From positions 372,001 to 436,000 of the forward strand of contig NZ_JSWG01000015.1 in the NCBI RefSeq assembly GCF_000797465.1: 64,000 nucleotides of DNA, written 5' to 3'. Shown here one piece after another: positions 33,246-58,912 of this stretch (its first letter is position 1; every line of letters starts with the position of its first letter). The translations under genes and the position numbers were made by a program. The notes under the pieces are model-generated. The model was not told the DNA's origin. It saw nothing but the letters and a program-made list of their open reading frames with translations, and ran no database searches. Origin of the DNA: Psychroserpens jangbogonensis (GTDB lineage Bacteria; Bacteroidota; Bacteroidia; Flavobacteriales; Flavobacteriaceae).

Positions 33246-33300
33246 TCTATTTGTTCATGTAAAAACAATTAAATAATTATTAATCAACTATTTAGAGTTA

Positions 33301-34638
33301 ATGAGTGATAAGCAAATTATAAAAGATAATTTAGACTATACTTTATTTTCTTGGTCAAAACAAGGTGGCCTAAATCCTATAAATGCATCGCATGCAAAAG
33401 GACGCTATTTCTACGACAGAGACGGAAAAAAATATCTAGATTTTTCTTCGCAATTAATGAATGTGAATATTGGTCATGGTAATCAACGTATTACTGAAGC
33501 TGTTACAAAACAAATGCAACAATATAGTTATTTGTACCCTGGAACAGCTTCAAAAGTACGAGGCGAACTCGGTAAAAAATTAGCAGAAATAACACCAGGA
33601 AATTTAACAAAGTCATTGTTTACACTTGGCGGAGCAGAAGCAATTGAAAATGCAATTAAGCTGGCTAGAATTTATACTGGTCGACATAAAATTATAACAC
33701 ACTATAGAGCATATCATGGTGCAACTAATGGCGCAATAACTGCAAGTGGTGGAGATCCAAGGCGATTTCCTGTAGATAGTAATGCGATGCCAAATATAGT
33801 GCATGTAGAAAACCCTTATGCATACCGTTGTCCTTGGAATTCTAATTCAATTGAACAATGTGGAGAACTAGCTTTTGCACATTTAGAACGTGTGGTTAAG
33901 TTTCAAAATCCAGATAGCGTGGCCGCTATTTTATTTGAAGGCGAATCTGGCTCTTCAGGTTGTATTAAATATCCTCCAATGTATTTAAAGCGTGTTCGAG
34001 AATTATGTGACAAATATGGAATTTTGATGATTGACGATGAGGTAATGAGCGGTTTTGGACGAACAGGAAAAATGTTTGGGATTGATCATCACGATGTGAC
34101 TCCAGATATTATGTGTTTAGCAAAAGGATTGACTTCAGGTTATTTGCCATTAGGAGCAATGATGGTTACAGATGCGATTGCTAACCATTTTAATGATATT
34201 CCTATGACTTTAGGTTTAACATATTCAGCACATGCAACTTGTTGTGCTGCAGCATTAGAAAATATTAAAATTATTGAAGAAGAAAATCTAGTAGAACGAG
34301 CAGCAGAAATGGGATTGTATATTGAAGCTGAAGTTGAAAAATTAAAAGCAAAGCATCCTTCTATTGGAGATTTTAGAAATACAGGATTGCTTGGTTGTAT
34401 AGAGTTAGTTAAGAATAGGGAAACAAAAGAACCTACAGTGCCATGGAATGCAAAACCGTCTGAAATGGAAGCTACAACAAGAATGGCAGCCAAAATTAGA
34501 GAATTAGGTATGTTCACTTTTGTGCGATGGAATTGGATTTTTATTGCACCTCCTTTAAACGTTACTAAAGAAGAAGTAGACGAAGGTTTAAGAATCGTCT
34601 CACAAGCTATTTCTATTGCTGACGAATACTGTAATTAA
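33301..34638 (+). CDS. Class III aminotransferase, probably beta-alanine/beta-aminoisobutyrate:pyruvate type
   Basis: This is a 445-residue PLP-dependent class III transaminase. PLP-binding LFTLGGAEAIENAIKLAR (about 102-119), the DDEVMSGFGRTGKM segment (about 242-255) and the PLP lysine K275 in CLAKGLTSG are present. In this setting it should move the amino group of beta-alanine (from uracil) or beta-aminoisobutyrate (from thymine) to a 2-oxoacid, giving the substrate of the downstream MmsA step. The exact amino acceptor is not readable from the sequence. Confidence 0.9.
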   Translation: MSDKQIIKDNLDYTLFSWSKQGGLNPINASHAKGRYFYDRDGKKYLDFSSQLMNVNIGHGNQRITEAVTKQMQQYSYLYPGTASKVRGELGKKLAEITPGNLTKSLFTLGGAEAIENAIKLARIYTGRHKIITHYRAYHGATNGAITASGGDPRRFPVDSNAMPNIVHVENPYAYRCPWNSNSIEQCGELAFAHLERVVKFQNPDSVAAILFEGESGSSGCIKYPPMYLKRVRELCDKYGILMIDDEVMSGFGRTGKMFGIDHHDVTPDIMCLAKGLTSGYLPLGAMMVTDAIANHFNDIPMTLGLTYSAHATCCAAALENIKIIEEENLVERAAEMGLYIEAEVEKLKAKHPSIGDFRNTGLLGCIELVKNRETKEPTVPWNAKPSEMEATTRMAAKIRELGMFTFVRWNWIFIAPPLNVTKEEVDEGLRIVSQAISIADEYCN

Positions 34639-34641
34639 TAT

Positions 34642-36318
34642 ATGAACAAAGACATTGTAGAATTACAAGAAGATGTTTCCGCCTCATCACTTTATAGTGA
34701 TGATTTAGCACCTGTGCCTTCAAGTCAACGGACTTGGAGTAAATGGCATTTAGCTGCTATTTGGGTAGGAATGGCAGTTTGTATTCCTACCTATCTTTTG
34801 GCTTCTTATATGATTAAGTCTGGCTTAAATTGGTATGAAGCGCTTATTATAATTGGTGTTGCTAATTTAATAATCACCATTCCTATGGTGCTTAATGGTC
34901 ATGCTGGAGTTAAGTACGGTGTCCCATTTCCTGTTATTGGACGATCTTCATTTGGGATTAAAGGTGTCCAAATTCCTTCTGTAATCAGAGGATTAGTTGC
35001 CTGTGGCTGGTTTGGTGTTAATACGTGGCTAGGAGGAATGGCAATTTATTCAATTTTTATTGCTATTTCTGGAAATGATCCATCAGTTGGTCTTTCGATT
35101 GGACAATTTATCTGTTTTGGCATTTTCTGGTTCATAAATATGTTTTTTATTTGGAAAGGAACAGAAAGTATTAAATGGCTTGAAGAATATTCTGCACCAA
35201 TATTGATTCTCATGGGATTGATTTTAATTGGTTGGGGATATACTAATGCTGGAGGATTTGGAATTGTATTAGAACAAGGAAAACAATTAGAAATTCCCGT
35301 TGCTGAAGTTTACCATGAAAATTATAATAATAATTTTATTCATATCAATCCTATCAAGGATAAACAAGGGGTTTCTAAAGCTAGTGAATATCAACTAATA
35401 TTAAATGGAAGTGAATTAGGGTGGAATACCTTGTCTGAAAAAGATGTTTCCATCGGCGAAATAAATGAGAATGATGCTTATCAGATTCAATTAAGGAATG
35501 CCAAATCAACATCTTCAATCGCAGACGTTACTGCTAGAGCAGGAAAAAGTTCATTTGGCGATAAAATTTGGAAGTATTTAATCTGGCTAACTGCTATGCT
35601 TGGGTTTTGGGCTACAATGTCATTAAGCATTGCTGATATAACGCGATACTCATCATCTCAAAAAGCACAAGTACAAGGTCAATTTATTGGATTGCCAGGT
35701 ACTATGATGCTCTATTCTTTTGTTGGCATATTTGTAACCTGCGCAGCAATTATAAATTTTGACGATATACTTATTGCTAATGATGCGCCTTGGGATCCAA
35801 TAGCATTAATAGCAAAATTTGATAGTGTTTGGGTAGTGGTTATTGCTCAAATCTTTATGATAATAGCGACTTTAAGTACAAACATTGCTGCTAACGTTAT
35901 TGCTCCAGCAAATGCGTTTTCAAATTTATCTCCTAAAAGGATAAGTTTTAGAGGAGGTGGAATCATTACAGGAATTATAGGTATTCTTATATTTCCTTGG
36001 CTATTGTTAGATGAAATACAAGGTTTGCTTATAGATGTTAGTGCGGTTTTAGGGCCAGTATTAGCAATTTTAGTTTGTGACTATTATCTAATTAGAAAGA
36101 AACAGATTCAAATCGCGGATCTGTATAAGGAAAATGGAATTTATTCTTTTGGAGGAAGCGGTGTAAATAAAGCTGCCATTATTGCATTGTTGATAGGTGC
36201 TTTTATCGCTATTGGAGGAAAATGGATTCCGGCTATGAGTTGGCTTTATGCGATTTCATGGTTTTCAGGATTCATTATTTCGTTTGTATTGTATTATTTA
36301 CTAATGAAAAAAAACTAA
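34642..36318 (+). CDS. NCS1 nucleobase transporter with an inserted soluble domain
   Basis: This is a 558-residue sodium- or proton-coupled symporter of the NCS1 family (uracil, thymine, allantoin and hydantoin importers). NCS1 features are GVPFPVIGRSSFG (about 93-105), RGLVACGWFGVNTW (116-129), and GFWATMSLSIADITRYSSSQ (321-340), with about 12 membrane helices in all. Between helices, residues about 215-303 form a polar, beta-prone insertion of roughly 85 residues that usual NCS1 proteins (about 480-500 residues) lack. It begins 3 bases after the aminotransferase stop and is followed at once by a second transporter gene. It probably imports uracil or thymine. Confidence 0.92.
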   Translation: MNKDIVELQEDVSASSLYSDDLAPVPSSQRTWSKWHLAAIWVGMAVCIPTYLLASYMIKSGLNWYEALIIIGVANLIITIPMVLNGHAGVKYGVPFPVIGRSSFGIKGVQIPSVIRGLVACGWFGVNTWLGGMAIYSIFIAISGNDPSVGLSIGQFICFGIFWFINMFFIWKGTESIKWLEEYSAPILILMGLILIGWGYTNAGGFGIVLEQGKQLEIPVAEVYHENYNNNFIHINPIKDKQGVSKASEYQLILNGSELGWNTLSEKDVSIGEINENDAYQIQLRNAKSTSSIADVTARAGKSSFGDKIWKYLIWLTAMLGFWATMSLSIADITRYSSSQKAQVQGQFIGLPGTMMLYSFVGIFVTCAAIINFDDILIANDAPWDPIALIAKFDSVWVVVIAQIFMIIATLSTNIAANVIAPANAFSNLSPKRISFRGGGIITGIIGILIFPWLLLDEIQGLLIDVSAVLGPVLAILVCDYYLIRKKQIQIADLYKENGIYSFGGSGVNKAAIIALLIGAFIAIGGKWIPAMSWLYAISWFSGFIISFVLYYLLMKKN

Positions 36319-36323
36319 CTGAC

Positions 36324-37838
36324 ATGAATACAAAATACATTATACTATTTGTTTATTTTTCAATCCTTTTTTTAATTGGATACTTCGCCTCTAAAAAAAT
36401 TAAGAGTACGAAAGATTATTATGTAGGAGGAAAACAACTAAATTTTTGGGTTGTTGCCTTTTCCGCAAGAGCCACAGGAGAATCTGCTTGGCTGCTGCTT
36501 GGACTTACTGGTTTAGGAGCCATGGTAGGTGTTTCGGCATTTTGGGTGGTTTTAGGTGAAGTTATTGGAGTTACAGTCGCGTGGTTTTTTATGGCTGAAA
36601 AATTTAAAAAGCTTACAGATAAATACAATTCAATAACCATCCCAGACTATCTAGTAAGTAGATTTAAATCTAAAACGAATACATTACGAATAGTCGCAGC
36701 AACTGCTTTGTCACTGTTTGTAGTGATATATGTTAGCGCACAAATTGATGCTACAGGTTCTGCTTTTGAATCGTTTCTTGGATGGAATTATTTTACAGGA
36801 GCCATTGTTGGTTTTTTTATAGTCTTAACTTATATTTTTTCTGGAGGATTTGTAGCTGTTGCTTGGTCAGATTTATTTCAAGGTTTAATTATGCTTATAG
36901 GCTTAGTTGCATTACCAATTGTAGCTTATTATGCCATTTCTCCTGAAGTATCTATATCCCAAGAACTCGTAAAACTAGACCCTTCATTTTTAAATATTTG
37001 GGGAGAAGGAGGTTTTAATACATTAAACGTATTTACAATTTTAGGGTTTATGTGTATCGGATTAGGCTTTATGGGATCGCCTCAATTATTTGTAAGGTTC
37101 ATGTCTATTAAAAGTACAAATGAAATAAAAAAAGGACGCTGGGTAGCTATTGTGTTTACAATACTTACAGATGTATGTGCTGTTCTTGTCGGAATTTTTG
37201 GAAGATATCTTTTGACATCCATTGATGCAAACCCTGAAACGATATTAGGAAATGGAGCGCAAAACGTTTTGCCTCTTTTGGTTGAAGAAATTATGCCACT
37301 GACTTTAATAGGAATATATATAGCAGCTGTCTTATCGGCAATCATGTCAACAATAGATTCGCTTTTAGTTGTGGCTTCTAGTGCGATATCTAGAGACTTT
37401 TATCAACAAATTTATAAGCCTAATAAATCTGAAAAAGAGCTCGCTAAAATCTCTAAAATAATTACGCTTTCATTGGCGATTTTTGCATTGCTAGTTGCTA
37501 TGATCGTTGCAGTTACGTCGCCAAATCGAACAATCTTTTGGTTTGTTATTTTTGGTTGGTCTGGAATAGCAGCGACATTTTGTCCAACAATTATTCTGTC
37601 ACTATTTTGGGGTAAATTCAACGAAAAAGGAGCGATTGCTTCTATGATTACAGGGTTTTTGTCTGTTCCTCTTTTTAAGTTCGGATTTGCTTCTTTGGAT
37701 TCTATCGGAATCTATTTTGAGAAACTTGGAGAATTAGGACCATCATTTGTTTTGGCTATAATAGTTGGAGTGATAGTGAGTAAACTTTCATCTAAGAGTT
37801 TGACGATAAGTGAGCTAAACATTGAGGATGCTGATTAA
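36324..37838 (+). CDS. Sodium:solute symporter (SSS family)
   Basis: This 504-residue, 13-helix sodium symporter of the PutP-like SSS family shows the motifs KDYYVGGKQLNFWVVAFSARATGESAW split over the first helices, WSDLFQGLIMLIGLVALP (about 195-212) and the late AVLSAIMSTIDSLLVVASSAISRD. I choose ATG 36324, 6 bases after the NCS1 gene stop; a longer in-frame extension from 36222 lies inside the NCS1 gene. PutP-type transporters carry proline, but in this operon a pyrimidine-derived compound such as dihydrouracil, ureidopropionate or beta-alanine is plausible. Confidence 0.9.
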   Translation: MNTKYIILFVYFSILFLIGYFASKKIKSTKDYYVGGKQLNFWVVAFSARATGESAWLLLGLTGLGAMVGVSAFWVVLGEVIGVTVAWFFMAEKFKKLTDKYNSITIPDYLVSRFKSKTNTLRIVAATALSLFVVIYVSAQIDATGSAFESFLGWNYFTGAIVGFFIVLTYIFSGGFVAVAWSDLFQGLIMLIGLVALPIVAYYAISPEVSISQELVKLDPSFLNIWGEGGFNTLNVFTILGFMCIGLGFMGSPQLFVRFMSIKSTNEIKKGRWVAIVFTILTDVCAVLVGIFGRYLLTSIDANPETILGNGAQNVLPLLVEEIMPLTLIGIYIAAVLSAIMSTIDSLLVVASSAISRDFYQQIYKPNKSEKELAKISKIITLSLAIFALLVAMIVAVTSPNRTIFWFVIFGWSGIAATFCPTIILSLFWGKFNEKGAIASMITGFLSVPLFKFGFASLDSIGIYFEKLGELGPSFVLAIIVGVIVSKLSSKSLTISELNIEDAD

Positions 37839-37886
37839 AAACATGTAAATTTAAAAAATCGATTAATTAATAATTCAATACTAAAA

Positions 37887-39269
37887 ATGTCAATTTTAAT
37901 AAAAAACGGTCAAGTTGTTACTGCGTCAGAAACTTATATAGCTGATGTATATACTGAAGGCGAGAAAATAGTTGCTATTGGAAAAGACTTGAATTACCAA
38001 GCAGATAAAGTAATTGATGCTACTGGGAAATTAGTATTTCCAGGTGGAATAGATCCTCACGTGCATTTAGATATGCCTTTTATGGGTACGTATTCTAGTG
38101 ATGACTATGAAACGGGTACTCGAGCAGCTTTACATGGAGGTACAACAATGGTGATTGACTTTATATTACAAACTCAAGGAGACACATTACATAGCGCATT
38201 AAAAACATGGCAAGACAAATCACAAAAGGCGATTGGTGATTATTCATATCATATGGCTGTAACCGATTTTAATGATAATGTGGCAAAAGAAGTCGTTCAG
38301 ATGATTGAAGAGGAAGGGATTTCATCTTTTAAAACATTTATGGCTTATAAAGGTGCTTTAATGATTGATGATGGACAAATGGTTCAACTCATGAAAGTAG
38401 TTAAGAAAGCTGGTGGCTTAGTTACTGTTCATGCAACTAATGGAGATGTAATTGATTCACTAATTGCAAAAAACAGAGCATTAGGAAACACATCACCTTT
38501 ATATCATTATTTATCACAACCGGAAGTTACTGAATCTGAAGCTTCAGCTCGTTTTGCAGATATGCTGCATTATACAGATTGTCCTGGCTATATTGTTCAT
38601 ATGACTTGCGAAGGTGCTTTAAATGCAGTACGAAAAGCAACACAGCGCAATCAGAAAATCTTTGTAGAAACCTGCACACAATATTTAGTGTTGGATGCAT
38701 CACTTTATGAGAATGATTTTGAAGGCGCAAAATGGGTAATGAGTCCACCATTAAGAGAAAAGAAAGATCAAGTAGCACTTTGGTCTGGAATTAATCAAGG
38801 GCTTGTTCAAGTCGTTGGTACCGATCATTGTCCGTTTATGTGGGAACAAAAGAAAATGGGAAAAGATGATTTTTCTAAAATCCCAAATGGTCATCCAGCA
38901 GTCGAACATCGTATGGAGTTGTTATTTTCAGAAGGTGTCAATAAAGGAAAGATTTCATTAACTAAATATGTTGAAGTAAGTTCTACTAATGCTGCAAAAA
39001 TCTTCGGAATGTATCCTAGAAAAGGAACAATCGCAATAGGAAGCGATGCAGATATCGTGATATTCGATCCTAAAAAAGAACATACCATTTCTGTAGAAAC
39101 ACATCATATGAATTGTGATTACTCAGGATATGAAGGTCATCAACTTACAGGGAAAACAGAAACTGTAATTTTAAGAGGGAAAGTCGCCATAGAAAATGAA
39201 GACTGTCTTTTAAAAGCAGGACATGGAGAATTTATTAAAAGAGGAAAAACCTCTAAAACAGTTATATAA
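37887..39269 (+). CDS. hydA: Dihydropyrimidinase
   Basis: This amidohydrolase of 460 residues opens dihydrouracil or dihydrothymine to the N-carbamoyl-beta-amino acid. The metal ligands H58 and H60 are in DPHVHLD, the carbamylated lysine is K149 in SSFKTFMAYK, and later metal-site motifs VTVHATNG and VGTDHCPF are present. The length and LREKKDQVALW segment fit the D-hydantoinase/dihydropyrimidinase group. It follows the SSS symporter by 48 bases and precedes the ureidopropionase, giving steps two and three in order. Confidence 0.96.
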   Translation: MSILIKNGQVVTASETYIADVYTEGEKIVAIGKDLNYQADKVIDATGKLVFPGGIDPHVHLDMPFMGTYSSDDYETGTRAALHGGTTMVIDFILQTQGDTLHSALKTWQDKSQKAIGDYSYHMAVTDFNDNVAKEVVQMIEEEGISSFKTFMAYKGALMIDDGQMVQLMKVVKKAGGLVTVHATNGDVIDSLIAKNRALGNTSPLYHYLSQPEVTESEASARFADMLHYTDCPGYIVHMTCEGALNAVRKATQRNQKIFVETCTQYLVLDASLYENDFEGAKWVMSPPLREKKDQVALWSGINQGLVQVVGTDHCPFMWEQKKMGKDDFSKIPNGHPAVEHRMELLFSEGVNKGKISLTKYVEVSSTNAAKIFGMYPRKGTIAIGSDADIVIFDPKKEHTISVETHHMNCDYSGYEGHQLTGKTETVILRGKVAIENEDCLLKAGHGEFIKRGKTSKTVI

Positions 39270-39303
39270 ACGATTACATATCAATAAATAAACAGATAAG
39301 ATC

Positions 39304-40170
39304 ATGGCAAGAAAAGTAAAATCAGGATTGATACAAATGAGTCTTCCAATGACAGAAGGAGAAGGGACGATTCAAGAAATTATGGATGCTATGTACGATA
39401 AACATATTCCGTATATAGAAGAAGCAGGACGACAAGGAGTTCAGATATTGTGTTTGCAAGAAATATTCAATACACCATATTTCTGTCCAGGACAAGATAA
39501 AAAATGGTACGAGTCTGCCGAATCTGTGCCAGGTCCAACTACTGAAAAAATGCAAGTACTTGCTAAGAAACATAATATGGTGATCATTGTTCCAATTTAT
39601 GAAAAGGAGTCACCTGGAGTATTGTACAATACAGCTGCAGTAATTGATGCAGATGGTACCTATTTAGGGAAGTATAGAAAAAATCATATTCCACATACAA
39701 CTGGATTCTGGGAGAAATTCTTCTTTAAACCAGGAAACATGGGTTATCCAGTGTTTCAAACAAAATATGCCAAAGTAGGCGTTTACATTTGTTATGATAG
39801 ACATTTTCCAGATGGAGCACGAGCTTTAGGTTTAAATGGAGCTGAAATTGTTTATAATCCTTCAGCTACAGTTGCTGGATTGAGTGAATACTTATGGAAA
39901 TTAGAGCAGCCTGCTCACGCAGCAGCTAATGGGTATTTTATGGGTTGTATTAATCGTGTTGGTGAAGAGAAGCCATGGAACTTAGGTAAGTTCTACGGAC
40001 AATCTTATTTTGTTGATCCACGTGGACAAATTTTTTCTGAAGCGTCTCGAGATGATGATGAATTATTAGTAGCTGAATTTGATTTAGATTTAATTGAAGA
40101 AGTACGTTCTACTTGGCAGTTTTATAGAGATAGAAGACCAGAAACTTACGGAAGATTAACAGATCTGTAA
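39304..40170 (+). CDS. Beta-ureidopropionase (nitrilase superfamily)
   Basis: This 288-residue C-N hydrolase releases beta-alanine or beta-aminoisobutyrate, CO2 and ammonia from the N-carbamoyl form. The catalytic triad is visible: E53 in LQEIFN, K126 in KYRKNHIP and C163 in YICYDRHFPDGAR. The HTTGFWEKFFFKPGN segment and RRPETYGRL tail match ureidopropionases and N-carbamoylputrescine amidases; the operon decides for the former. It lies 34 bases after hydA and 47 bases before preT. Confidence 0.93.
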   Translation: MARKVKSGLIQMSLPMTEGEGTIQEIMDAMYDKHIPYIEEAGRQGVQILCLQEIFNTPYFCPGQDKKWYESAESVPGPTTEKMQVLAKKHNMVIIVPIYEKESPGVLYNTAAVIDADGTYLGKYRKNHIPHTTGFWEKFFFKPGNMGYPVFQTKYAKVGVYICYDRHFPDGARALGLNGAEIVYNPSATVAGLSEYLWKLEQPAHAAANGYFMGCINRVGEEKPWNLGKFYGQSYFVDPRGQIFSEASRDDDELLVAEFDLDLIEEVRSTWQFYRDRRPETYGRLTDL

Positions 40171-40217
40171 ATACTTGATTAAATAAAATTATTACTCTGA
40201 ATTCATAATTATTACAC

Positions 40218-41540
40218 ATGGCAGAATATAAAAGACCTAAAACGAAAGCTGAATTCGATAAGAATTTCAAGCAGAAAAAACCATTAATGAATGATACTGA
40301 GGCTTTTTACGAAGCTTCACGATGTTTGTTTTGTTATGATGCACCCTGTATTCAAGCATGTCCAACGAGTATTGATATCCCCTTGTTTATTAAGCAGATT
40401 CATACTGATAATATAACAGGAGCATCCAAAACAATTTTTGATTCTAACTGGCTCGGAAATGCCTGTGGTGTTGTTTGTCCAACTGGTGTGTTGTGTGAAG
40501 GTGCTTGTGTGTATAATCATCAAGATGTGCCTCCAATTCAAATTGGTAGACTTCAAAACTATGCAACTAATAAAACGATTGAAGCTGAAAAAGTAATTTT
40601 TAAAGTTGGTAAGCCTAACGGAAAAAAGATTGCAATTATTGGAGCAGGTCCAGCAGGAATTGCTTGTGCTTGTGAAGCACGAACTCTGGGTTATGATGTG
40701 GATATATATGAAGCAAAAGATAAGCCGTCAGGATTAACGGTTTACGGTATTGCACCATATAAAATTACAAACGAAGAGGTGTTGAAAGAAGTTGAATACC
40801 TTCAAAAGCAACTTAGTTTCAATATTAAATATAACAATGCTATTAATTCAAAAAAGGAATTAGCTATTCTAGAAAAGGATTACGATGCCATATTTGTAGG
40901 AGTTGGTCTTGGAGCAACTAGACATTTAGGAATGGATGGTGAAGATAAAGAAGGTGTTGTTGGTGCTGTTGAATTTATAGAAGAACTTCGCATGAAGCAA
41001 CACGAAATTAAAATTCCAGCTAAAGTTGTCGTTCTCGGTGGAGGAAATACTGCCATGGATGCAGCTTCCGAAGCAGCAAGAATGGGAGCCCGAAAAACAG
41101 TTTTAGCTTATAGAAACTCTAAACAGAAAATGGGAGCTTATGGATTTGAATATGATTTGGCTATCAGTGCTGGAGTCGATAGTTTATTCAATGTAACTCC
41201 AATAGCTATTACAGGAAATGGTAAAGTAGAAGGTGTGAAATTTGCTAAAACCGAAATGGTAGATGGTAAATTAAAAACTAATATGAATAATACATTTGTA
41301 GTGAGATGTGATATGGTGATAAAAGCAACAGGTCAAGCTAAGCAAGGTCATTTGTATGACATGATTGATGACTTAGATATAGATAATAAAACAAGAATTA
41401 AAATTAATGACGAATTTCAAACATCCAATCCAAAGTATTTTGCTGGAGGTGATGCTGTAAATGGAGGAGCAGAAGTTGTAAATGCAGCTTACGATGGCAA
41501 AATGGCAGCACAAGGAATTCATAATTGGTTAACTAAATAA
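40218..41540 (+). CDS. preT: NAD-dependent dihydropyrimidine dehydrogenase subunit PreT
   Basis: This 440-residue flavin and iron-sulfur subunit passes electrons from NAD(P)H to PreA for reduction of uracil or thymine. The N-terminus has two cysteine clusters, C36/C39/C44/C48 (CLFCYDAPCIQAC) and C83/C87/C93/C97 (CGVVCPTGVLCEGAC). FAD-binding GAGPAG is at 142-147, and the NAD(P) site VVLGGGNTAMDAA lies about residue 272. The layout matches the N-terminal half of mammalian dihydropyrimidine dehydrogenase. PreA follows after 10 bases. Confidence 0.95.
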   Translation: MAEYKRPKTKAEFDKNFKQKKPLMNDTEAFYEASRCLFCYDAPCIQACPTSIDIPLFIKQIHTDNITGASKTIFDSNWLGNACGVVCPTGVLCEGACVYNHQDVPPIQIGRLQNYATNKTIEAEKVIFKVGKPNGKKIAIIGAGPAGIACACEARTLGYDVDIYEAKDKPSGLTVYGIAPYKITNEEVLKEVEYLQKQLSFNIKYNNAINSKKELAILEKDYDAIFVGVGLGATRHLGMDGEDKEGVVGAVEFIEELRMKQHEIKIPAKVVVLGGGNTAMDAASEAARMGARKTVLAYRNSKQKMGAYGFEYDLAISAGVDSLFNVTPIAITGNGKVEGVKFAKTEMVDGKLKTNMNNTFVVRCDMVIKATGQAKQGHLYDMIDDLDIDNKTRIKINDEFQTSNPKYFAGGDAVNGGAEVVNAAYDGKMAAQGIHNWLTK

Positions 41541-41550
41541 GAATAGAAGC

Positions 41551-42885
41551 ATGATAGATTTATCAATAAATTTCGGAGGAATAAAAGCGCCAAACCCTTT
41601 TTGGTTGGCATCAGCACCACCAACAAATTCAGGCTATCAAATAATGAAGGCTTTTGAAGCTGGATGGGGAGGAGCAGTTTGGAAAACGCTTGGAGTTCCT
41701 GTTGTTAATGTGTCGAGTCGTTATGGTTCAGTAGATTATAGAAATACCAAAATGATGGGTTTCAATAACATTGAGCTAATTACAGACAGACCTTTGGCTG
41801 ATAACCTTCGTGAAATTGAAGAAGTGAAAAAATATTTTCCTGATCATGCTGTTATTGCTTCACTTATGGTGGAAAGCAGATCAGAATGGGAGCAGATTAT
41901 AAAAGATGTTCAAAATGCAGGAGCCGATGGTATAGAACTTAATTTCGGTTGTCCACACGGCATGTGTGAACGTGGAATGGGTTCCGCAGTAGGACAAGAG
42001 CCAGAAGTTTTAAAAACGATTGTAGAATGGGTTAAGGAAGCTGCGAATATTCCGGTAATTACTAAGTTATCACCTAATATCTCACATATTACCGACCCTG
42101 GATTAGCAGCTGTTCAAGGTGGAACAGATTCTATTTCCTTGATTAATACAATTAAAAGTATCGTTGGAATTGATTTAGAGTCTTATGCGCCTTATCCAAT
42201 TGTAGATGGTAAAGGAAGTAATGGTGGTTATTGTGGGCCAGCAGTTAAGCCTATTGCTATGCACATGCTTAAAGATTTAGCTCAGCATCCAGAGATTGGA
42301 AAAGTGCCTTTATCAGGTATTGGTGGTATTGAAACTTGGCGTGATGTTGTTGAGTTTATATTACTAGGTGCTACTTCTGTTCAAGTGTGTACAGCAGTAA
42401 TGCATTATGGCTTTGGAATAGTGCGTGAAATGGAAGCTGGTTTACGTCAGTTTATGGAAGAGAAGAATTATAACACTATTTATGATTTTGCAGGTAAAGC
42501 TTTGCCAAACGTAACTGATTGGAAACACTTAAATTTAAAACATAAAGTAGTAGCCGAAATAAATCCAGATAAGTGCATAGGGTGTGACCTTTGTTACATT
42601 TCTTGTGATGATGGTGCGCATCAAGCTATTGCTTTACCAATTGATACTACAAATAGAATTCCGAGTATAATCGAAGAAAACTGTGTTGGTTGTAATTTAT
42701 GCTCATTAGTTTGTCCTGTTGAAGACTGTATTACAATGGTTAAGAGAGATGACGGAACCGAAAGTTTAACATGGCATGAACGCACATTAAACGATGATAT
42801 CCCGGTGACTTTTGATGATGACAGAGCAGGAGGTAAAGGACATTTTGTTCCAACACCAGCTGATGCATTGAAGCATAAGAAGTAA
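41551..42885 (+). CDS. preA: Dihydropyrimidine dehydrogenase catalytic subunit PreA
   Basis: PreA carries the FMN site where uracil or thymine is reduced to the dihydro form. The protein has 444 residues: a TIM-barrel FMN domain (about 1-310), with C134 in NFGCPHGM in the position of the active-site cysteine of mammalian DPD. A C-terminal ferredoxin domain with two 4Fe-4S motifs follows (CIGCDLCYISC about 343-353 and CVGCNLCSLVC about 380-390). It is equivalent to the C-terminal half of mammalian DPD. Its stop overlaps the start of the hydrolase gene by one base. Confidence 0.95.
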   Translation: MIDLSINFGGIKAPNPFWLASAPPTNSGYQIMKAFEAGWGGAVWKTLGVPVVNVSSRYGSVDYRNTKMMGFNNIELITDRPLADNLREIEEVKKYFPDHAVIASLMVESRSEWEQIIKDVQNAGADGIELNFGCPHGMCERGMGSAVGQEPEVLKTIVEWVKEAANIPVITKLSPNISHITDPGLAAVQGGTDSISLINTIKSIVGIDLESYAPYPIVDGKGSNGGYCGPAVKPIAMHMLKDLAQHPEIGKVPLSGIGGIETWRDVVEFILLGATSVQVCTAVMHYGFGIVREMEAGLRQFMEEKNYNTIYDFAGKALPNVTDWKHLNLKHKVVAEINPDKCIGCDLCYISCDDGAHQAIALPIDTTNRIPSIIEENCVGCNLCSLVCPVEDCITMVKRDDGTESLTWHERTLNDDIPVTFDDDRAGGKGHFVPTPADALKHKK

Positions 42886-52074: not shown

Positions 52075-53613
52075 ATGCTTAAAAAAGTTTTTGGAAGTTC
52101 CGTATTTGGCGTGGAAGCCACAACTATTACTGTTGAGGTTAATGTCGATTCTGGTATTGGTTATCATCTTGTCGGCCTTCCAGATAACGCCATCAAGGAA
52201 AGTAATTTCCGTATTGCTGCAGCACTTCAAAATAACGGTTATAAAATTCCTGGTAAGAAAATCATTATCAACATGTCTCCTGCAGATTTACGTAAGGAAG
52301 GTTCTGCTTACGATTTAACTTTAGCAGTTGGGATATTAGTCGCGACAAAACAAATAAAAGCAGAGCATCTTGAGCAATATCTTATAATGGGAGAATTGTC
52401 TTTAGATGGAAACCTACAACCTATAAAAGGCGCATTACCTATTGCTGTAAAAGCGAAAGAAGAAGGGTTTAAAGGTTTTATTCTTCCGAAACAAAATGCT
52501 AAAGAAGCTGCTATTGTTGATGGGTTGGAAGTGTTTGGTGTTGAAAATATTAAAGAAGTAATTGATCATTTTGATAAGGACATTTCTATTGCTCAAACTA
52601 TTATCAATACTAAAGAAGAATTTTATAAAAATTTAGAATTTCCTGAGTTTGATTTTTCTGATGTCAAAGGCCAGGAAAGCATCAAGCGTTGCATGGAAAT
52701 CGCGGCAGCTGGTGGTCATAATATTATTCTTATTGGACCTCCTGGAGCAGGAAAAACAATGCTTGCAAAACGATTACCGAGCATTCTGCCTCCAATGACG
52801 TTATCTGAAGCTCTTGAAACTACAAAGATTCATTCGGTTGTTGGTCGTGTTAAAGAGCACGCAGGAATCATGGCGCAACGACCGTTTAGAAGTCCGCATC
52901 ATACAATCTCAAATGTTGCATTAGTTGGAGGTGGAAGTTATCCGCAACCTGGAGAAATTTCATTATCACATAACGGAGTGTTGTTTTTAGATGAGTTGCC
53001 AGAATTCAAGCGTGAAGTTTTAGAAGTCATGCGACAGCCGCTTGAGGATCGAGAGGTTACGATTTCTAGAGCAAAGTTTACTGTAACGTATCCTTCGTCT
53101 TTTATGTTGGTCGCTAGTATGAATCCAAGTCCTAGTGGCTATTTTAATGATCCCAATGCGCCTGTAACATCTTCTCCTGCCGAAATGCAACGGTATTTAA
53201 GTAAGGTTTCAGGCCCTTTATTAGATAGAATTGATATTCATATCGAAGTCACTCCGGTTCCCTTTGAGAAATTGTCAGATGAGCGAAAAGGAGAGTCTTC
53301 AGTAGAGATAAGAAAACGTGTTACAGCAGCTCGTGAATTGCAAACCATACGCTTTGAAGAGTCTAATAGTGTGCATTACAATGCACAAATGAATACCAAA
53401 CAAATTCGAAAACATTGTAAATTAGACGAGGCTTCCATGCAATTACTAAAAACTGCGATGGAGCGTTTAAATTTATCAGCTAGAGCTTATGATCGTATTT
53501 TAAAAGTTTCCAGAACAATTTCAGATTTAGAAAATTCTGAATCTATAAATGGTTCTCACATCAGTGAGGCCATTCAATATAGAAGTATGGATCGTGAAGG
53601 TTGGTTGGGCTAA
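52075..53613 (+). CDS. comM: ComM/YifB family magnesium-chelatase-like AAA+ ATPase
   Basis: This 512-residue protein has an N-terminal ChlI-like domain ([21 protein letters not shown] region split over strands, about 1-120), a AAA+ core with Walker A GPPGAGKT at 221-228 and Walker [11 protein letters not shown] about 302-311, and a C-terminal helical domain ([18 protein letters not shown]). ComM is a branch-migration helicase active in natural transformation and recombination in other bacteria. It is 62 bases after the preceding gene and is probably transcribed separately. Confidence 0.93.
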
Positions 53614-53655
53614 AAATCTTAAAAATGTTATAGATTAAAACCTTAAATTTATAAC

Positions 53656-54774
53656 ATGAAAAACTATTTCTTACTCTGTTTTGCGCTTTCAGTGTTGAGT
53701 TGCAACACCTCCGAAAACAAGACAACCACAATTTCTAAACAAAAAATAGAGGTCAAACAAGCTATTATGCCAATTCTTAATTTGGAAGAAGCCAACCGAT
53801 TAGCAAAATTACCAATAGATTGTATTCAAACGGAATATCCTAACAAACTCAATCAGGTGATTGGAAGTGACGAAGATTTGCAGTCGCCTCAAGATTTGCA
53901 TCCAGCATTTTATGGTTGCTTTGATTGGCATTCTGCTGTTCATGGTCACTGGAGTTTGGTCAGTTTATTAAAACAATTTCCTGGCTTAAACAATCGAGAA
54001 AAAAGTATGGCCATGTTGCTCGAGAATATGTCTGAAGAGAACATGAAAATTGAAGTGTCTTATTTTTTTGGAAAACACAACGCATCATGGGAACGGACTT
54101 ACGGTTGGGCTTGGTTATTAAAATTAGCTGAAGAATTACATTCTTGGGATGATCCAGTAGCAAGAACATTAGAAGCTAATTTGCAACCGTTGACAGATTT
54201 GATTGTTGGTAAATATTTGGAATTTTTACCGAAACTAAATTATCCAATTCGAGTTGGAGAACATCCAAATACGGCTTTCGGACTCTCATTTGCTTATGAT
54301 TATGCAAAAACGGTTGGGAATAAGGAGTTGAAGTCGCTTATAGAGCTGAGGGCAAACGATTTCTATAATAATGACGCTGGTTGCCCTTTGTCGTGGGAGC
54401 CTAGCGGATTTGATTTCCTGTCGCCTTGTTTGGAAGAAGCTGCCTTAATGAAGCGTGTATTATCGACAGAAAATTATAAAACATGGATTAATGATTTTCT
54501 TCCGCAATTAAAAAGGAAAAACTTTTCCATTGAAACAGGAAAAGTTAGTGATAGAACTGATGGAAAATTGGTGCATCTTGATGGTGTTAACTTTTCTAGA
54601 GCATGGAGTTTAAATGAAATTGCGAAAGACATACCAGAATACAACCACTTAAAAAACATAGCGAATCAACATATTAATTATTCATTACCAAGTATTGTTG
54701 GTGATAGTTATGAAGGTGGACATTGGCTAGGTAGTTTTGCTATTTATGCCTTAAATTCTGTAGAACGTGATTAG
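53656..54774 (+). CDS. DUF2891 family lipoprotein
   Basis: This 372-residue protein has a lipoprotein signal; C16 in VLSC is the predicted lipidation site. The DUF2891 hallmark HPAFYGCFDWHSAVHGHWSL (about 82-101) is present, followed by alternating helices resembling an (alpha/alpha) barrel, with WERTYGWAWLLKLAEEL and HPNTAFGLSFAYDYA. The family has no agreed function. Its last 8 bases overlap the start of the NRAMP-like transporter gene, so it is translationally tied to the 5-oxoproline operon, which suggests a periplasmic role in supplying or cleaving the substrate. Confidence 0.88.
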   Translation: MKNYFLLCFALSVLSCNTSENKTTTISKQKIEVKQAIMPILNLEEANRLAKLPIDCIQTEYPNKLNQVIGSDEDLQSPQDLHPAFYGCFDWHSAVHGHWSLVSLLKQFPGLNNREKSMAMLLENMSEENMKIEVSYFFGKHNASWERTYGWAWLLKLAEELHSWDDPVARTLEANLQPLTDLIVGKYLEFLPKLNYPIRVGEHPNTAFGLSFAYDYAKTVGNKELKSLIELRANDFYNNDAGCPLSWEPSGFDFLSPCLEEAALMKRVLSTENYKTWINDFLPQLKRKNFSIETGKVSDRTDGKLVHLDGVNFSRAWSLNEIAKDIPEYNHLKNIANQHINYSLPSIVGDSYEGGHWLGSFAIYALNSVERD

Positions 54775-55993
54775 AAACTGGTTTAAAAATATTGGTCCAG
54801 GACCTCTCGTAGCAGCTGCATTTATTGGGCCAGGAACAGTTACGGTCTGCACACTTGCAGGAATTAATTTTGGATTTGCATTGCTATGGGCAATGGTTTT
54901 ATCTATTGTGGCTACTGTTGTTCTGCAAGAAATGGCAGCTCGTTTAGGCATAATTTCTCAAAAGGGGTTGTCAGAAGTGATTCGTTCTCAAATCTCTAAT
55001 CCTTTATTAAGAACTCTTGCTATCATTTTGATTCTTGCGGCAATTGTTATTGGTAACGCTGCATACGAAGCTGGTAATATAAGCGGAAGTATTCTAGGTT
55101 TAGAGAACTTATTTGGTAGTCAAACCATTGCTATTGGTGATATGAATCTTAATTTGTTTAGCATTTTAATTGGTGCGATTGCTTTTGTATTACTCTATAT
55201 TGGTAATTATAAAATTTTAGAAAAAACATTGATTTCTTTAGTGATATTAATGAGTTTGGCCTTTTTAATTACCGCTATTATGACAAAGCCAGATTGGTCA
55301 GAAGTGTTAAAAGGACTTTTTGTTCCAAAGTTTTCGAGTGACAATATATTGACAGTTATAGCTTTAGTTGGAACAACTGTAGTGCCGTATAATTTGTTTT
55401 TGCATGCGTCTTTAGTAAAGGAAAAATGGAAAAATGAATCAGATCTCAAATTTGCTAGAAAGGACACCATTATTGCAGTGGTTCTTGGTGGAATTGTCTC
55501 GATGTGTATTATGATTTCTGCTGCTGCGATTAAGTCTTTTGAAGTTAATAATGCTGCAGATTTGGCAAAAGGACTTGAGCCACTTTTTGGAAGCTATGCA
55601 TCTGTATTTTTATCTGTTGGATTATTTGCCGCAGGAATAACGAGTGCTATTACTGCGCCTCTTGCTGCTGCTTATGTTGCTTCTGGATGCTTAGGTTGGA
55701 GTTCCAATATGAAATCTAAGCGATTTAGATTTGTTTGGATATTTATTCTGACATTAGGAGTCTTGTTCTCGTCTATAGGTTTTAAATCTATCGAAATCAT
55801 CAAATTCGCTCAAGTTGCTAATGGATTACTGTTACCTGTTATTGCTGGTTTCTTATTATGGATTATGAATAAAACGTCTATTCTAGGAAAATATAAAAAC
55901 TCGTTGCTACAAAATATTTTTGGCTTTGCAATACTAGCAATAGCAGTGTTTTTAGGTGTAAAAAGTATTTTGAAAGTATTTAACTTTATTTAA
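54767..55993 (+). CDS. NRAMP-fold transporter lacking the metal-binding motifs
   Basis: This 408-residue membrane protein has 11 predicted helices of the NRAMP family. It starts at GTG 54767, overlapping the DUF2891 gene by 8 bases. The helix-1 metal motif DPGN is GPGT here (residues 21-24), and the helix-6 motif MPH is VPY (206-208), so the aspartate, asparagine, methionine and histidine that hold the metal in true NRAMPs are all absent. It sits directly before pxpABC (1 base to pxpA). By established NRAMP knowledge it should not carry metals. I infer an organic substrate, most simply 5-oxoproline, coupled to sodium or protons. Confidence 0.9.
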   Translation: MIRNWFKNIGPGPLVAAAFIGPGTVTVCTLAGINFGFALLWAMVLSIVATVVLQEMAARLGIISQKGLSEVIRSQISNPLLRTLAIILILAAIVIGNAAYEAGNISGSILGLENLFGSQTIAIGDMNLNLFSILIGAIAFVLLYIGNYKILEKTLISLVILMSLAFLITAIMTKPDWSEVLKGLFVPKFSSDNILTVIALVGTTVVPYNLFLHASLVKEKWKNESDLKFARKDTIIAVVLGGIVSMCIMISAAAIKSFEVNNAADLAKGLEPLFGSYASVFLSVGLFAAGITSAITAPLAAAYVASGCLGWSSNMKSKRFRFVWIFILTLGVLFSSIGFKSIEIIKFAQVANGLLLPVIAGFLLWIMNKTSILGKYKNSLLQNIFGFAILAIAVFLGVKSILKVFNFI

Positions 55994-55994
55994 A

Positions 55995-56729
55995 ATGAAG
56001 CAAATAGATATCAATTGTGATTTAGGTGAAGGCTTAGGTAATGAAGCCTTTTTAATGCCTTATTTGTCTTCATGCAATATTGCTTGTGGTGGACATGCTG
56101 GTGATTTTGAAACAATGAAACATGTTGTGAGACTAGCAAAAATGCATCATGTTAAAATTGGTGCTCATCCATCATTTCCTGATAAAGAAAATTTTGGACG
56201 AAAAATAATGCAAATGTCGCCTTCAGAATTATATAATACACTTGAAGATCAGATTAATGCTCTAATGGAAGTTTTGAATTCTATGGATTTAAAGTTGCAT
56301 CACGTTAAACCTCATGGCGCATTATACAATTTAGCATCTATTGATGAGGCAACAGCCCAAATTATAGTCAATGTTATTAAAGGGATCGATAAGAATCTAA
56401 TACTTTATGCGCCTTATCAATCTGTGATTTCTAAAATAGCTATTGCCGAAGGAATGAAAGTTTTATATGAAGGTTTTGCTGATAGAAATTACAATGCCGA
56501 TCTAACTTTGGTTTCAAGACAAAATAATGATGCCATAATTCATGACTCAGAGTTGATTTTCGAGCATGTTTTTGGGATGATTTCTAAAGAAAAAGTTAAG
56601 ACAATAAGTGGAGTGGAAGTAGAACTGAAAGTTGATACATTTTGCGTTCATGGAGATCATAAATATGTGATTAAAAATTTAGAATTTTTAACTCGTAAAC
56701 TAGAACAGAATTCTATAAATATTTTGTAA
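55995..56729 (+). CDS. pxpA: 5-oxoprolinase subunit PxpA
   Basis: This is a 244-residue LamB/YcsF family protein with the N-terminal DINCDLGEGLGNE motif and conserved SCNIACGGHAGD (about 26-37) and VKPHGALYN segments. PxpA is the catalytic core of the prokaryotic ATP-dependent 5-oxoprolinase, which opens 5-oxoproline to glutamate with PxpB and PxpC. It is one base after the transporter gene and 3 bases before pxpB, forming a tight operon. Confidence 0.95.
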   Translation: MKQIDINCDLGEGLGNEAFLMPYLSSCNIACGGHAGDFETMKHVVRLAKMHHVKIGAHPSFPDKENFGRKIMQMSPSELYNTLEDQINALMEVLNSMDLKLHHVKPHGALYNLASIDEATAQIIVNVIKGIDKNLILYAPYQSVISKIAIAEGMKVLYEGFADRNYNADLTLVSRQNNDAIIHDSELIFEHVFGMISKEKVKTISGVEVELKVDTFCVHGDHKYVIKNLEFLTRKLEQNSINIL

Positions 56730-56732
56730 ATT

Positions 56733-57467
56733 TTGAAAGATTTCAAACTCACATACCATCGCTTTTCTGAACGTTCAATTTTAGTTCAATGGCCTCAAGA
56801 AATTGATGAAAATATACTGAAAGATGTGCTAATCTTCAAAAATCACCTTACAAATTTAAATATTGAATCTATACTTCATGTAAACACTGCATATAACTCG
56901 ATATTAATAACTTATATATTAACTATTGATAATGCCTATAGTGAGTTTTCGGCCTTAAAAGAGGCGTATTTTACTAGAATTAGTAATAAAAAGTCGGTCT
57001 TGAAGCACTGGAATATTCCTGTGTGTTATGATGATGAATTTAGTATTGATCTAAATGAAATTTCTAAAGAAACACAATTTTCAAAATCAGAAATTATTAG
57101 GATACATTCCGAGGTAATTTATACTGTTTTTTTTATCGGTTTCTTACCTGGTTTTTTATACTTAGGCGGACTTGATAAACGATTGTTTTTTCCACGTAAA
57201 AACATTCCTAGATTGGAGGTTAAAAAAGGAGCAGTTGCAATTGGAAATCAGCAAACAGGAATTTACCCAAATAAGAGTCCAGCAGGTTGGAATATTATCG
57301 GGAATTCACCACTAGAATTTTTTAATAGTAAAGAAATTAGTCCATGTTTTGCAAAAGCAGGAGATACAATTCAATTTGTTCCTATTACAATTGAAGAGCA
57401 TAATCGTGTTTTGAAAGCAGTTGAAAATGGAACGTATAACTTAGAAAGCGAGATAATAGATGGTTGA
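56733..57467 (+). CDS. pxpB: 5-oxoprolinase subunit PxpB
   Basis: This is a 244-residue KipI-like (CT_C_D) protein. The family segments VYTVFFIGFLPGFLYLGGLD (split about 126-145) and AVAIGNQQTGIYPNKSPAGW (about 167-186) are present. The start is TTG at 56733, with the pxpA stop 4 bases upstream. PxpB works as part of the PxpABC complex, probably in ATP use and substrate activation. Its end overlaps pxpC by 8 bases. Confidence 0.93.
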   Translation: MKDFKLTYHRFSERSILVQWPQEIDENILKDVLIFKNHLTNLNIESILHVNTAYNSILITYILTIDNAYSEFSALKEAYFTRISNKKSVLKHWNIPVCYDDEFSIDLNEISKETQFSKSEIIRIHSEVIYTVFFIGFLPGFLYLGGLDKRLFFPRKNIPRLEVKKGAVAIGNQQTGIYPNKSPAGWNIIGNSPLEFFNSKEISPCFAKAGDTIQFVPITIEEHNRVLKAVENGTYNLESEIIDG

Positions 57468-58308
57468 AGTACTCAAAACTGGTTTTTATGATACAGTTCA
57501 GGACATAGGTCGCTTTGGTGTTCAAGAATATGGTGTTCCATGTTCTGGCGCAATGGATTTGTATTCTGCTAAAGTTGCTAATACTGCTTTGGGAAACTCT
57601 ATAACTGAAGCGGTTTTAGAAATAATGATTATAGGACCTAAACTAAAATTTCAGTGTACTACTGAAATTGTGCTATCTGGAGCAGATTTAAGCCCAAAAC
57701 TAAATTCCAAACCTATAAAGATGAATACGCGTATTCGTGTTCTTAAAAATGACGAACTGTCTTTTGGCCTTAGAAACTACGGCTGTAGAGCTTATTTGGC
57801 TGTTAAAGGAGGTTTTCAAACAGAATTTGTAATGAATAGTTATAGTATGTATAAGACGATAACTAAAAATTCGAAACTAAAAAAGGGCGATCAACTATCA
57901 ATCTTTGAGAATAATGATTCAATTGGTAATGCATTTGCTTCTCTTAGAATTGATAATAAGCATTTCAATGTCAATGTATTGGATGTTTTTAAAGGCATCG
58001 AGTTTGGAAGATTATCTTGTTTAGAACAACAAGTCCTTTTTTCTACTGAATTTACGATTTCAAAGGATAGTAATAGAATGGCATATCAGGTTAACGAAAC
58101 CGTAGATAATAAAATTGAACCTATTATTACATCACTAGTGTTGCCCGGAACAGTACAATTGACGCCTTCTGGAAAACTATTGATTTTAATGCGTGACTGC
58201 CAAACTACAGGAGGTTATCCAAGAATTTTGCAGGTTTCAGAAGAATCGATTAATCGGTTGTCTCAGAGTGTTTTTGGTGAAAAATTTAGGTTTAAATGCA
58301 TTGATTAG
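57460..58308 (+). CDS. pxpC: 5-oxoprolinase subunit PxpC
   Basis: This is a 282-residue KipA-like (CT_A_B) protein with GFYDTVQDIGRFGVQEYGVP at residues 7-26 and GAMDLYSAKVAN after it, hallmarks of the biotin-dependent carboxylase/5-oxoprolinase PxpC group. It completes the PxpABC enzyme. The start overlaps the pxpB end by 8 bases. It ends the operon; no obvious strong terminator was seen. Confidence 0.93.
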   Translation: MVEVLKTGFYDTVQDIGRFGVQEYGVPCSGAMDLYSAKVANTALGNSITEAVLEIMIIGPKLKFQCTTEIVLSGADLSPKLNSKPIKMNTRIRVLKNDELSFGLRNYGCRAYLAVKGGFQTEFVMNSYSMYKTITKNSKLKKGDQLSIFENNDSIGNAFASLRIDNKHFNVNVLDVFKGIEFGRLSCLEQQVLFSTEFTISKDSNRMAYQVNETVDNKIEPIITSLVLPGTVQLTPSGKLLILMRDCQTTGGYPRILQVSEESINRLSQSVFGEKFRFKCID

Positions 58309-58399
58309 TAAGAAAAAACCTAGAATTTAGAATATTTTTTGGTTTTATGTTAAGATTTTCAATACATTAGACTAACAATTAATTTAAACTAACTAAATT

Positions 58400-58912
58400 A
58401 TGAAAAAATTAATATTACTTATTTTAGGATTTGTTTTAGGTGCTTTAGCAATGTATTTTTATTTTCATAATGATAAAAACCAAAATGACATGGATGAAAC
58501 ACCAATTCCAAAAGGTATTATTAGCCCTTCTGAAATCACAAAATTAACTGAAGCTTACGATCCAAGGTATCAAGCAATTAATGATTCAGTGTTTAAGGGA
58601 GTTGAGGGAGGAGATAACAGATCTTCTTGGTACTCTTTAGAAGACATACAAAACTTTATTACACTAGCTGAGAAACAAGCTGGAGAATTGGGATACACAA
58701 TGGATGGAATTAGGATTTATCCTGGAGCACATGAGGCAGTAGATGGCACACCTGGTTATTCTACTTTTTTACTGGTGCCAACAGGTTCTTTAAATTCATC
58801 TGAAGGAAATATGTTGTCGTTGCAAAAAGGTGGTGGTGATGATATTTCTGGAGGAAATGGTTTAGATAAAGGTGAAAGTGGTGATCCTCCAGGAGCAAAT
58901 TATCCTCAATAA
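58400..58912 (+). CDS. Membrane-anchored hypothetical protein
   Basis: This 170-residue protein has one N-terminal transmembrane anchor (about 3-22). A conserved-looking alpha/beta stretch follows (about 75-125, with WYSLEDIQNFITLAEKQAGE and GIRIYPGAH). The tail is glycine-rich and low complexity (about 140-170). No named family is recognised. It precedes a seven-helix protein and a histidine kinase by 11 bases and may be a periplasmic sensor partner. Confidence 0.7.
   Translation: MKKLILLILGFVLGALAMYFYFHNDKNQNDMDETPIPKGIISPSEITKLTEAYDPRYQAINDSVFKGVEGGDNRSSWYSLEDIQNFITLAEKQAGELGYTMDGIRIYPGAHEAVDGTPGYSTFLLVPTGSLNSSEGNMLSLQKGGGDDISGGNGLDKGESGDPPGANYPQ

Follow-up and report, generated by a model that had tools for sequence, protein, structure and literature searches.

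The locus

We analysed a stretch of 64,000 nucleotides from Psychroserpens jangbogonensis (the window; positions 372,001 to 436,000 of contig NZ_JSWG01000015.1), in which an NRAMP-fold transporter gene stands in a run of five forward-strand genes together with the genes of a 5-oxoprolinase. The transporter gene (54767..55993) has a GTG start and encodes 408 amino acids that match PF01566 with 309 bits. Provided that this start is right, it overlaps by 8 bases the preceding gene, which encodes a DUF2891 protein of 372 amino acids (53656..54774; PF11199, 452 bits). On the other side, a gap of 1 base separates its stop from the start of pxpA (55995..56729; LamB/YcsF family; PF03746 with 281 bits, NF003814 above cut-off), and pxpB (56733..57467; PF02682, and TIGR00370 with 153 bits at a cut-off of 146) and pxpC (57460..58308; PF02626 above cut-off) follow. 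The assignment of pxpC is by Pfam match and position, since the NCBIfam models TIGR00724 and NF045499 were matched below their cut-offs. The three subunit genes of the 5-oxoprolinase PxpABC thus lie side by side. A family profile search of seven genes, from 52075 to 58912, found no hydantoinase family. The overlap and the one-base gap had already been described in a first-pass annotation of this DNA and were confirmed here; the genes are presumably co-transcribed.

An NRAMP fold without the metal ligands

Canonical Nramps hold their metal with a DPGN motif in transmembrane helix 1 (TM1) and an MPH motif in TM6. In the window protein TM1 reads AAFIGPGTVTVCTLAG, with GPGT (residues 21-24; 54827..54838) in the place of DPGN, and TM6 reads GTTVVPYNLFLHAS, with VPY (residues 206-208; 55382..55390) in the place of MPH. 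Hence G, T, V and Y stand where canonical Nramps have the ligand residues D, N, M and H, and on this point our alignments agree with the first-pass annotation. The replacements are not a peculiarity of one protein: G21, P22, G23 and T24 are invariant in all 36 rows of an alignment of related GPGT proteins, as are V206 and Y208, and only the middle residue of VPY varies (P207 becomes T or G in some relatives). In TM3 the segment AAYEAGNISG (residues 98-107; 55058..55087) takes the place of a TDLAEFLG-like segment of canonical Nramps in the MAFFT alignment, and many of these proteins retain the TM3 glutamate. The register of TM3 is uncertain, as the positions named in PMC10606218 point to a different one (this and the other papers cited by number are drawn on for individual passages).

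The structure predicted from the 36 aligned rows has a predicted local distance difference score (pLDDT) of 89.2 and a predicted template-modelling score (pTM) of 0.89. Its best match in the PDB is EleNRMT (7qji/7qia), an Nramp-related Mg transporter (NRMT), with a template-modelling score TMq of 0.85 and 26% identity; against the canonical DraNramp TMq is about 0.8. From the motif alignments, these structural matches and the tree described below, the window protein is an NRAMP fold without the metal-ligand set. It shares PF01566 and the fold with the canonical Nramp/MntH proteins and has neither DPGN nor MPH.

The first-pass annotation had expected that automatic annotation would call this protein MntH. 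It would not: the MntH model (NF001923) is failed with 167 bits at a cut-off of 430. The protein does pass NF037982, 'Nramp family divalent metal transporter', with 98 bits at a cut-off of 50, and so it is this name that makes the misleading label.

The genome of the window has two PF01566 genes, neither of which encodes DPGN, and one ZIP gene. The second PF01566 protein (L002:1420-2631, on contig C4 of genome G000; 63.8 bits) is Nramp-related, also lacks DPGN and MPH, and reads IGVSHLVQST in its TM1 region.

A clade of its own

In 198 genomes from the phylum to which the window belongs, 30 homologues (the window protein among them) show at least 47% identity to the window protein, and all 30 carry GPGT and V-P-Y. 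We refer to these close homologues as clade A. That the motif is common to all of them argues that it did not arise by chance. A further 17 homologues from the phylum, at 34-41% identity, carry GPGT with VPY (13) or VTY (4). These counts cover the matches listed: all 47 NRAMP matches that reach about 182 bits were fetched, and from the weaker ones a sample of 15, which held 14 proteins of other types and L062, a truncated, GPGT-like protein with VPY. Among the matches listed, haloarchaeal relatives of this kind share 43.6-48.4% identity with the window protein. The five of them that were read in sequence, all from plasmids, have GPGT and VGY, in one case with an L after GPGT. A phage collection yielded at least 10 records, five of which are listed at 23.6-26.9% identity.

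Removal of near-copies reduced 203 NRAMP open reading frames (ORFs) to 148, and the tree was built from 101 rows. For these rows 13 of 64 GPGT proteins were removed manually as near-copies, a random draw supplied 14 of 39 DPGN and 12 of 19 NRMT proteins, and the very divergent L064 and L224 were excluded. This was a quick tree, and some of its branches are long. In it the GPGT proteins and L062 form one side of a branch with an SH-aLRT (Shimodaira-Hasegawa-like approximate likelihood-ratio test) support of 94. The DPGN group, the NRMT-type group and a fourth lineage, which we call GPGF, have a support of 100 each and all lie apart from the GPGT proteins. The window protein does not group with the DPGN proteins, and it has neither the TM1 and TM6 motifs of the NRMT type nor a place in their clade. 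Hence the GPGT motif marks a clade that is distinct from canonical metal Nramps and from Mg-type NRMTs. A joint origin of GPGT and GPGF was not rejected in the approximately unbiased test (p-AU 0.574).

A few sequences at the margin of this classification deserve mention. L149 (GTGT with VPY, 40% identity) was scored as 'other'; it has no adjacent ring-opening enzyme, and both PxpA and HyuB are encoded elsewhere in its genome. L066, a GPGT-like fragment interrupted by a stop, lies by pxpABC at a contig end in genome G128 and was not counted. At L047:6173-8644 (-) an ORF of 823 codons contains a GPGT NRAMP domain, either as a fusion or through a misplaced start. The four members of the VTY subclade (L038, L040, L042, L043) have no oxoprolinase within about 6 kb; HyuB is encoded elsewhere in three of their genomes and PxpA in one.

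Partner enzymes

HyuA and HyuB, or their fused form, are what we take to be a second type of ring-opening enzyme next to PxpABC, from a superfamily that presumably also includes hydantoinases and caprolactamase. We counted enzymes of both types within 6 kb of distinct NRAMP loci that lie in stretches of at least 8 kb. A candidate ring-opening enzyme was found at 43 of the 60 GPGT loci: PxpA, as part of PxpABC, at 29, and the HyuA/HyuB type at 14 (L048 was scored as Hyu though HyuB lies about 5 kb off; at L065 HyuB is 1.4 kb off). In none of the 26 comparison loci was either enzyme within this distance (0/7 DPGN, 0/10 NRMT and 0/9 others including L062). We kept 16 GPGF loci out of this comparison because they had been fetched for their proximity to PxpA (L206-L223 and L225 were chosen for lying near PxpA; L224 is from the same batch).

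In the phylum sample pxpA adjoins 26 of the 30 close homologues, in one case at a distance of one gene. The genomes of the other four (G194, G053, G076 and G111) all encode PxpA elsewhere. PxpA is therefore present in 30/30 genomes with clade A, compared to 17 of the 168 others (Fisher 9e-24, a value that overstates the significance because related genomes are not independent). Counts by genus (14/14 with clade A versus 15/89) and within the window's family (8/8 versus 1/11) are fairer. If both enzymes are considered, all 48 genomes of the phylum sample with an identified GPGT protein encode PxpA or HyuB, as do 28 of the 150 others; this includes the genomes in which no enzyme adjoins the GPGT locus.

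Two further samples extend the picture beyond the phylum. In 199 genomes around a Gemmiger genome PxpA occurs in 6/6 clade-A genomes versus 57/193 others. The 249 genomes around a proteobacterial genome contain only four clade-A proteins. One of these (L151) stands in a run of DUF2891, transporter and pxpABC like that of the window; the gene of another (L150) shares 4 bases with a fused HyuAB gene, which is 1216 codons long. The remaining two have neither enzyme adjacent, with PxpA encoded elsewhere in the genome.

Within the window's phylum, eight of the fetched loci show the HyuAB partnership (adjacent in L041, L045-L047, L049, L067 and L068; the eighth is L065); it is also found in L150 and on haloarchaeal plasmids. 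Haloarchaeal annotation was examined for 12 of the 23 rows of this kind among the matches listed, with the motif confirmed by sequence in five of the 12. In 10 of these places HyuA begins directly after the transporter stop or overlaps it by 1 base. In Natrononativus no HyuA follows the transporter, and the Halobellus record ends too soon to tell.

In 11 of the 12 haloarchaeal places (L075, L079, L080, L081 and L247-L253), the one without HyuAB among them, a gene for a CopG/ribbon-helix-helix regulator stands before the transporter gene; none is annotated in the twelfth. The regulator possibly responds to the substrate.

On the tree the partner changed between pxp and hyu at least three times among 34 rows. 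A transporter that is retained while unrelated enzymes are exchanged points to a shared substrate. The idea that GPGT/VPY marks pxpABC operons exclusively is ruled out, as the clade also occurs with HyuAB or alone.

Relation to known systems

NRAMP-family proteins in pxpABC operons have been described before. PxpT of Corynebacterium glutamicum is needed for growth on 5-oxoproline, pxpT alone complements the deletion, and YcsG of Bacillus subtilis is a PxpT homologue with 50% shared identity (PMC13274462). Like these proteins and PxpG of Clostridioides difficile, the window protein belongs to a gene run with pxpABC, and like the GPGF proteins it has no DPGN or MPH. It is not their orthologue. 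Identity to the 9a52 chain taken as YcsG is 21% in a fold alignment and identity to GPGF proteins is 23-27%, and the GPGF proteins, with GPGF(L/V)TQT-like sequences in TM1 and GGTVGGY-like sequences in TM6, form the separate tree group described above.

GPGF was assigned to the YcsG lineage by gene order, through comparison with the pxp order of B. subtilis (in part from PMC10448178 and PMC13274462). Examples are L211, with the order pxpA-NRAMP-PF07286-pxpB-pxpC-IclR, and a Bacillus badius plasmid (L246) with pxpA-NRAMP-hydro-lyase. A search of the genome contigs with a 19-base stretch of the published pxpT primer returned two unrelated loci only, and a sequence search of the PDB set did not find the YcsG chain. 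In the window's phylum a GPGF protein lies beside pxpA in six PxpA genomes (L226, L227, L228, L229, L231 and L233), none of them among the 48 with GPGT. GPGT and GPGF therefore seem to fill the same slot.

The residues of the window protein match a description in work on the evolution of Slc11. Mutations that mimic the 'orphan' outgroup of Cellier (D to G and N to T in h1, 'VY' in h6, 'YN' in h3; PMC10606218) correspond to G and T in TM1, V and Y in TM6, and Y and N in TM3 of the window protein. The GPGT clade thus appears to be this outgroup, the nearest one to the Nramps that transport metals, judging by motif residues in the published signature and in our alignment. The outgroup is also treated in PMC9606685 and PMC4072509, and the passages drawn on assign it no substrate, whereas the GPGT clade is here tied to 5-oxoprolinases. 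Titles and abstracts among the matches listed for NRAMP with 5-oxoproline or hydantoinase and for the Slc11 outgroup gave no substrate for it either, in a search whose scope left out most subscription journals.

EleNRMT and other Nramp-related Mg transporters resemble the window protein in the absence of DPGN and MPH. They differ in their TM1 (NDAGG-type) and TM6 (APWMQ-type), in their tree group and in the absence of an enzyme partner from all 10 wide-flank loci. The canonical proteins (DraNramp, BfraNramp) share the fold of the window model and differ in their motifs and tree group.

What the transporter may carry

Taken together, the gene order, the conserved partnership with two unrelated enzymes, the neighbouring genes described below and the need for PxpT, of another NRAMP-family lineage, in growth on 5-oxoproline make it likely that the window protein imports 5-oxoproline (pyroglutamate) or a near analogue, i.e., a similar five-membered cyclic amide. 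The first-pass annotation had proposed a dedicated uptake system for 5-oxoproline or for a peptide ending in it. The association with pxpABC in the phylum sample favours the first part of this proposal, and the peptide is not needed to explain it. Transport of 5-oxoproline by NRAMP-family proteins as such has been published before, with YcsG and PxpT; the GPGT clade is another lineage.

The protein would act as a secondary carrier of the LeuT fold that imports 5-oxo-L-proline by alternating access. The substrate would be bound where TM1 and TM6 are unwound at their centres; the presence there of G, T, V and Y in place of D, N, M and H would leave room for a small organic acid. ATP-dependent PxpABC would then open the imported lactam in the cytoplasm to yield glutamate. 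DUF2891, as a probable extracytoplasmic lipoprotein, may release or present the substrate, which is a conjecture. The Bacteroidetes have a possible source of substrate: according to the Q-rule, most of their exported proteins start with pyroglutamate (PMC5837995, PMC10653852), which makes free 5-oxoproline outside the inner membrane plausible.

One could also argue that the protein works in the other direction and exports glutamate or internally formed 5-oxoproline, which arises spontaneously in every cell (PMC13274462). Uptake agrees better with the catabolic enzyme of this gene run and with a DUF2891 protein that is probably extracytoplasmic, and mutants in YcsG and PxpT, though these are of the other lineage, fail to use 5-oxoproline from outside (PMC13274462). 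We therefore consider export very improbable.

Several observations weigh against import of 5-oxoproline, and the first group concerns the association itself. Neither enzyme lies within 6 kb in 17 of the 60 wide-flank GPGT loci. The first-pass annotation had asked how often GPGT/VPY homologues sit beside pxpABC and had named a lack of this association as grounds for refutation; PxpA is there at 29 loci, Hyu as a second partner at 14, and the 17 with neither partly speak for refutation, although in the phylum sample such genomes encode one of the enzymes elsewhere. Moreover, the clade-A gene is missing from 17 of the 47 PxpA genomes of the phylum, so that pxpABC does not need the transporter. 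The genomes compared are related, and hence not independent samples, and below about 165 bits the classification as GPGT comes from a sample of the matches.

The second group concerns the HyuAB partners, which are possibly hydantoinases. For the L150 enzyme, the nearest relative with a solved structure is an N-methylhydantoinase, and a racemase- or isomerase-family gene accompanies HyuAB at 7 of the 10 haloarchaeal loci (Asp/Glu-racemase family in six, maleate-isomerase family in one). The Asp/Glu-racemase superfamily includes hydantoin racemase. Hence hydantoin is a possible substrate at the haloarchaeal loci, and there it is a more serious alternative than the peptide. For the window protein the corresponding reading is a wider range of cyclic amides, or another one than 5-oxoproline (hydantoin, N-methylhydantoin or another lactam), with 5-oxoproline as at most one substrate among others. 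The relatives of HyuA/HyuB, which include N-methylhydantoinase and caprolactamase, favour this reading, with the caprolactamase models matched below cut-off. However, the partners in the window are PxpABC, a reported 5-oxoprolinase, and DUF2891, and a hydantoinase family is absent from the seven genes tested. This reading is thus possible but rather unlikely here; it overlaps with import of 5-oxoproline or a near analogue, and the likelihoods that we give to the two do not exclude each other.

The third group concerns metals. The window protein could import Mn or Mg, either to supply the enzyme or with no link to it beyond shared regulation, as has been claimed for YcsG/MntG and MumT. YcsG was reported to be a Mn importer and renamed MntG: its overexpression raised cell Mn, MntR bound the pxpA promoter, and its effect on 5-oxoproline use was possibly polar (PMC10448178). 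MumT of Acinetobacter was likewise reported as a Mn importer, since deletion of mumT lowered cell Mn (PMC5050338), and metal transport by PxpT was left possible by its authors (PMC13274462). Nramp-related proteins without DPGN and MPH include a Mg transporter (PMC12873925) and a protein from Acidobacterium that reportedly carries mainly Mn (PMC4072509). Loss of the ligands does not by itself, therefore, prove that the substrate is not a metal; we reject that argument, and with it the step from the lost motifs to 'not a metal transporter' that the first-pass annotation had taken. The TM3 glutamate of many clade members would also suit a metal. Since the window genome is without any canonical Nramp, a role in Mn uptake cannot be dismissed as redundant. 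On the other hand, all four ligand side chains of TM1 and TM6 are replaced, by residues that are invariant in the 36 rows, and the association tracks two unrelated lactam-opening enzymes and is seen at none of the 26 comparison NRAMP loci. Metal import is improbable in our view, and we do not rate it lower because motif-less relatives do carry Mg or Mn and the genome has no canonical Nramp.

If 5-oxoproline or a near analogue is the cargo in the window, the question arises of how far this extends. We see an even chance that the whole GPGT clade imports small cyclic amides, the cargo being kept in bacteria and archaea while two unrelated cytoplasmic ring-opening enzymes are swapped. If this is true, then an organic acid is the cargo of proteins closely related to the metal-transporting Nramps, perhaps of their ancestors, and the annotation 'Nramp family divalent metal transporter' is wrong in many cases. 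Under this proposal a broad orphan branch of PF01566, whose members now carry a metal-transporter annotation, receives a substrate that can be tested. The proposal also touches on the origin of metal transport in a fold that elsewhere serves amino acids, and on the dispute over whether NRAMP-family proteins of pxp operons move Mn or 5-oxoproline. DUF2891 is indicated as a further component of 5-oxoproline use.

DUF2891 and other neighbours

The DUF2891 protein of the window has an all-helical predicted fold (pLDDT 85.0) and a lipoprotein-like signal, VLSC with Cys16, which was read by eye. Among solved structures the closest to it is CJ0554 of Campylobacter jejuni (8ieu_A; TMq 0.82, 36% identity). 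In an experiment that a paper of 2026 reports as preliminary, a Campylobacter cj0552-4 mutant (DUF969, DUF979 and DUF2891) lost growth on 5-oxoproline (PMC12795558). Gene clusters of Pontixanthobacter list HyuB, DUF969, DUF979 and DUF2891 as a run (PMC10040529). Of the 60 GPGT loci, 8 have DUF2891 within 6 kb; PxpABC accompanies it at six of these, fused HyuAB at one (L041) and neither enzyme at one (L035). With its relative CJ0554 in the cj0552-4 operon, the run in Pontixanthobacter and GPGT loci with both enzymes, DUF2891 is tied to 5-oxoproline use via more than one route. It is not specific to the present gene run, because the 19 of 198 phylum genomes that encode it include some outside the 48 with GPGT. 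The DUF969/DUF979 transporter (cj0552-3) resembles the window system in its proposed uptake of 5-oxoproline and its DUF2891 partner. It differs in belonging to other Pfam families (DUF979 is PF06166), not to NRAMP. At L203/L204 the DUF2891 gene is interrupted by stops.

Other families accompany the GPGT loci of the second sample. Three of them (L143, L145 and L147) have a member of the D-glutamate cyclase family PF07286, and L148 has a pyroglutamyl peptidase (PF01470), DUF979 and an SSF symporter. L148:873-11783, which unites these three genes with pxpABC and the GPGT transporter, is a dense candidate 5-oxoproline locus, and by eye it also seems to encode a sensor protein together with a response regulator.

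A comM-like gene (Mg_chelatase/ChlI; 52075-53613) lies directly upstream of the gene run in the window. Look-alikes of comM, identified by eye, also occur near pxp genes in L033, L236 and L242, probably as shared synteny. A type IX sorting domain is also encoded in the window, in keeping with the phylum Bacteroidota. Further upstream, at 31776-42885, a gene run resembles a pathway of reductive pyrimidine degradation; it comprises an aldehyde dehydrogenase, a class III aminotransferase, a cytosine/purine-type permease, an SSF symporter, an amidohydrolase, a carbon-nitrogen hydrolase and two dihydropyrimidine-dehydrogenase-like subunits.

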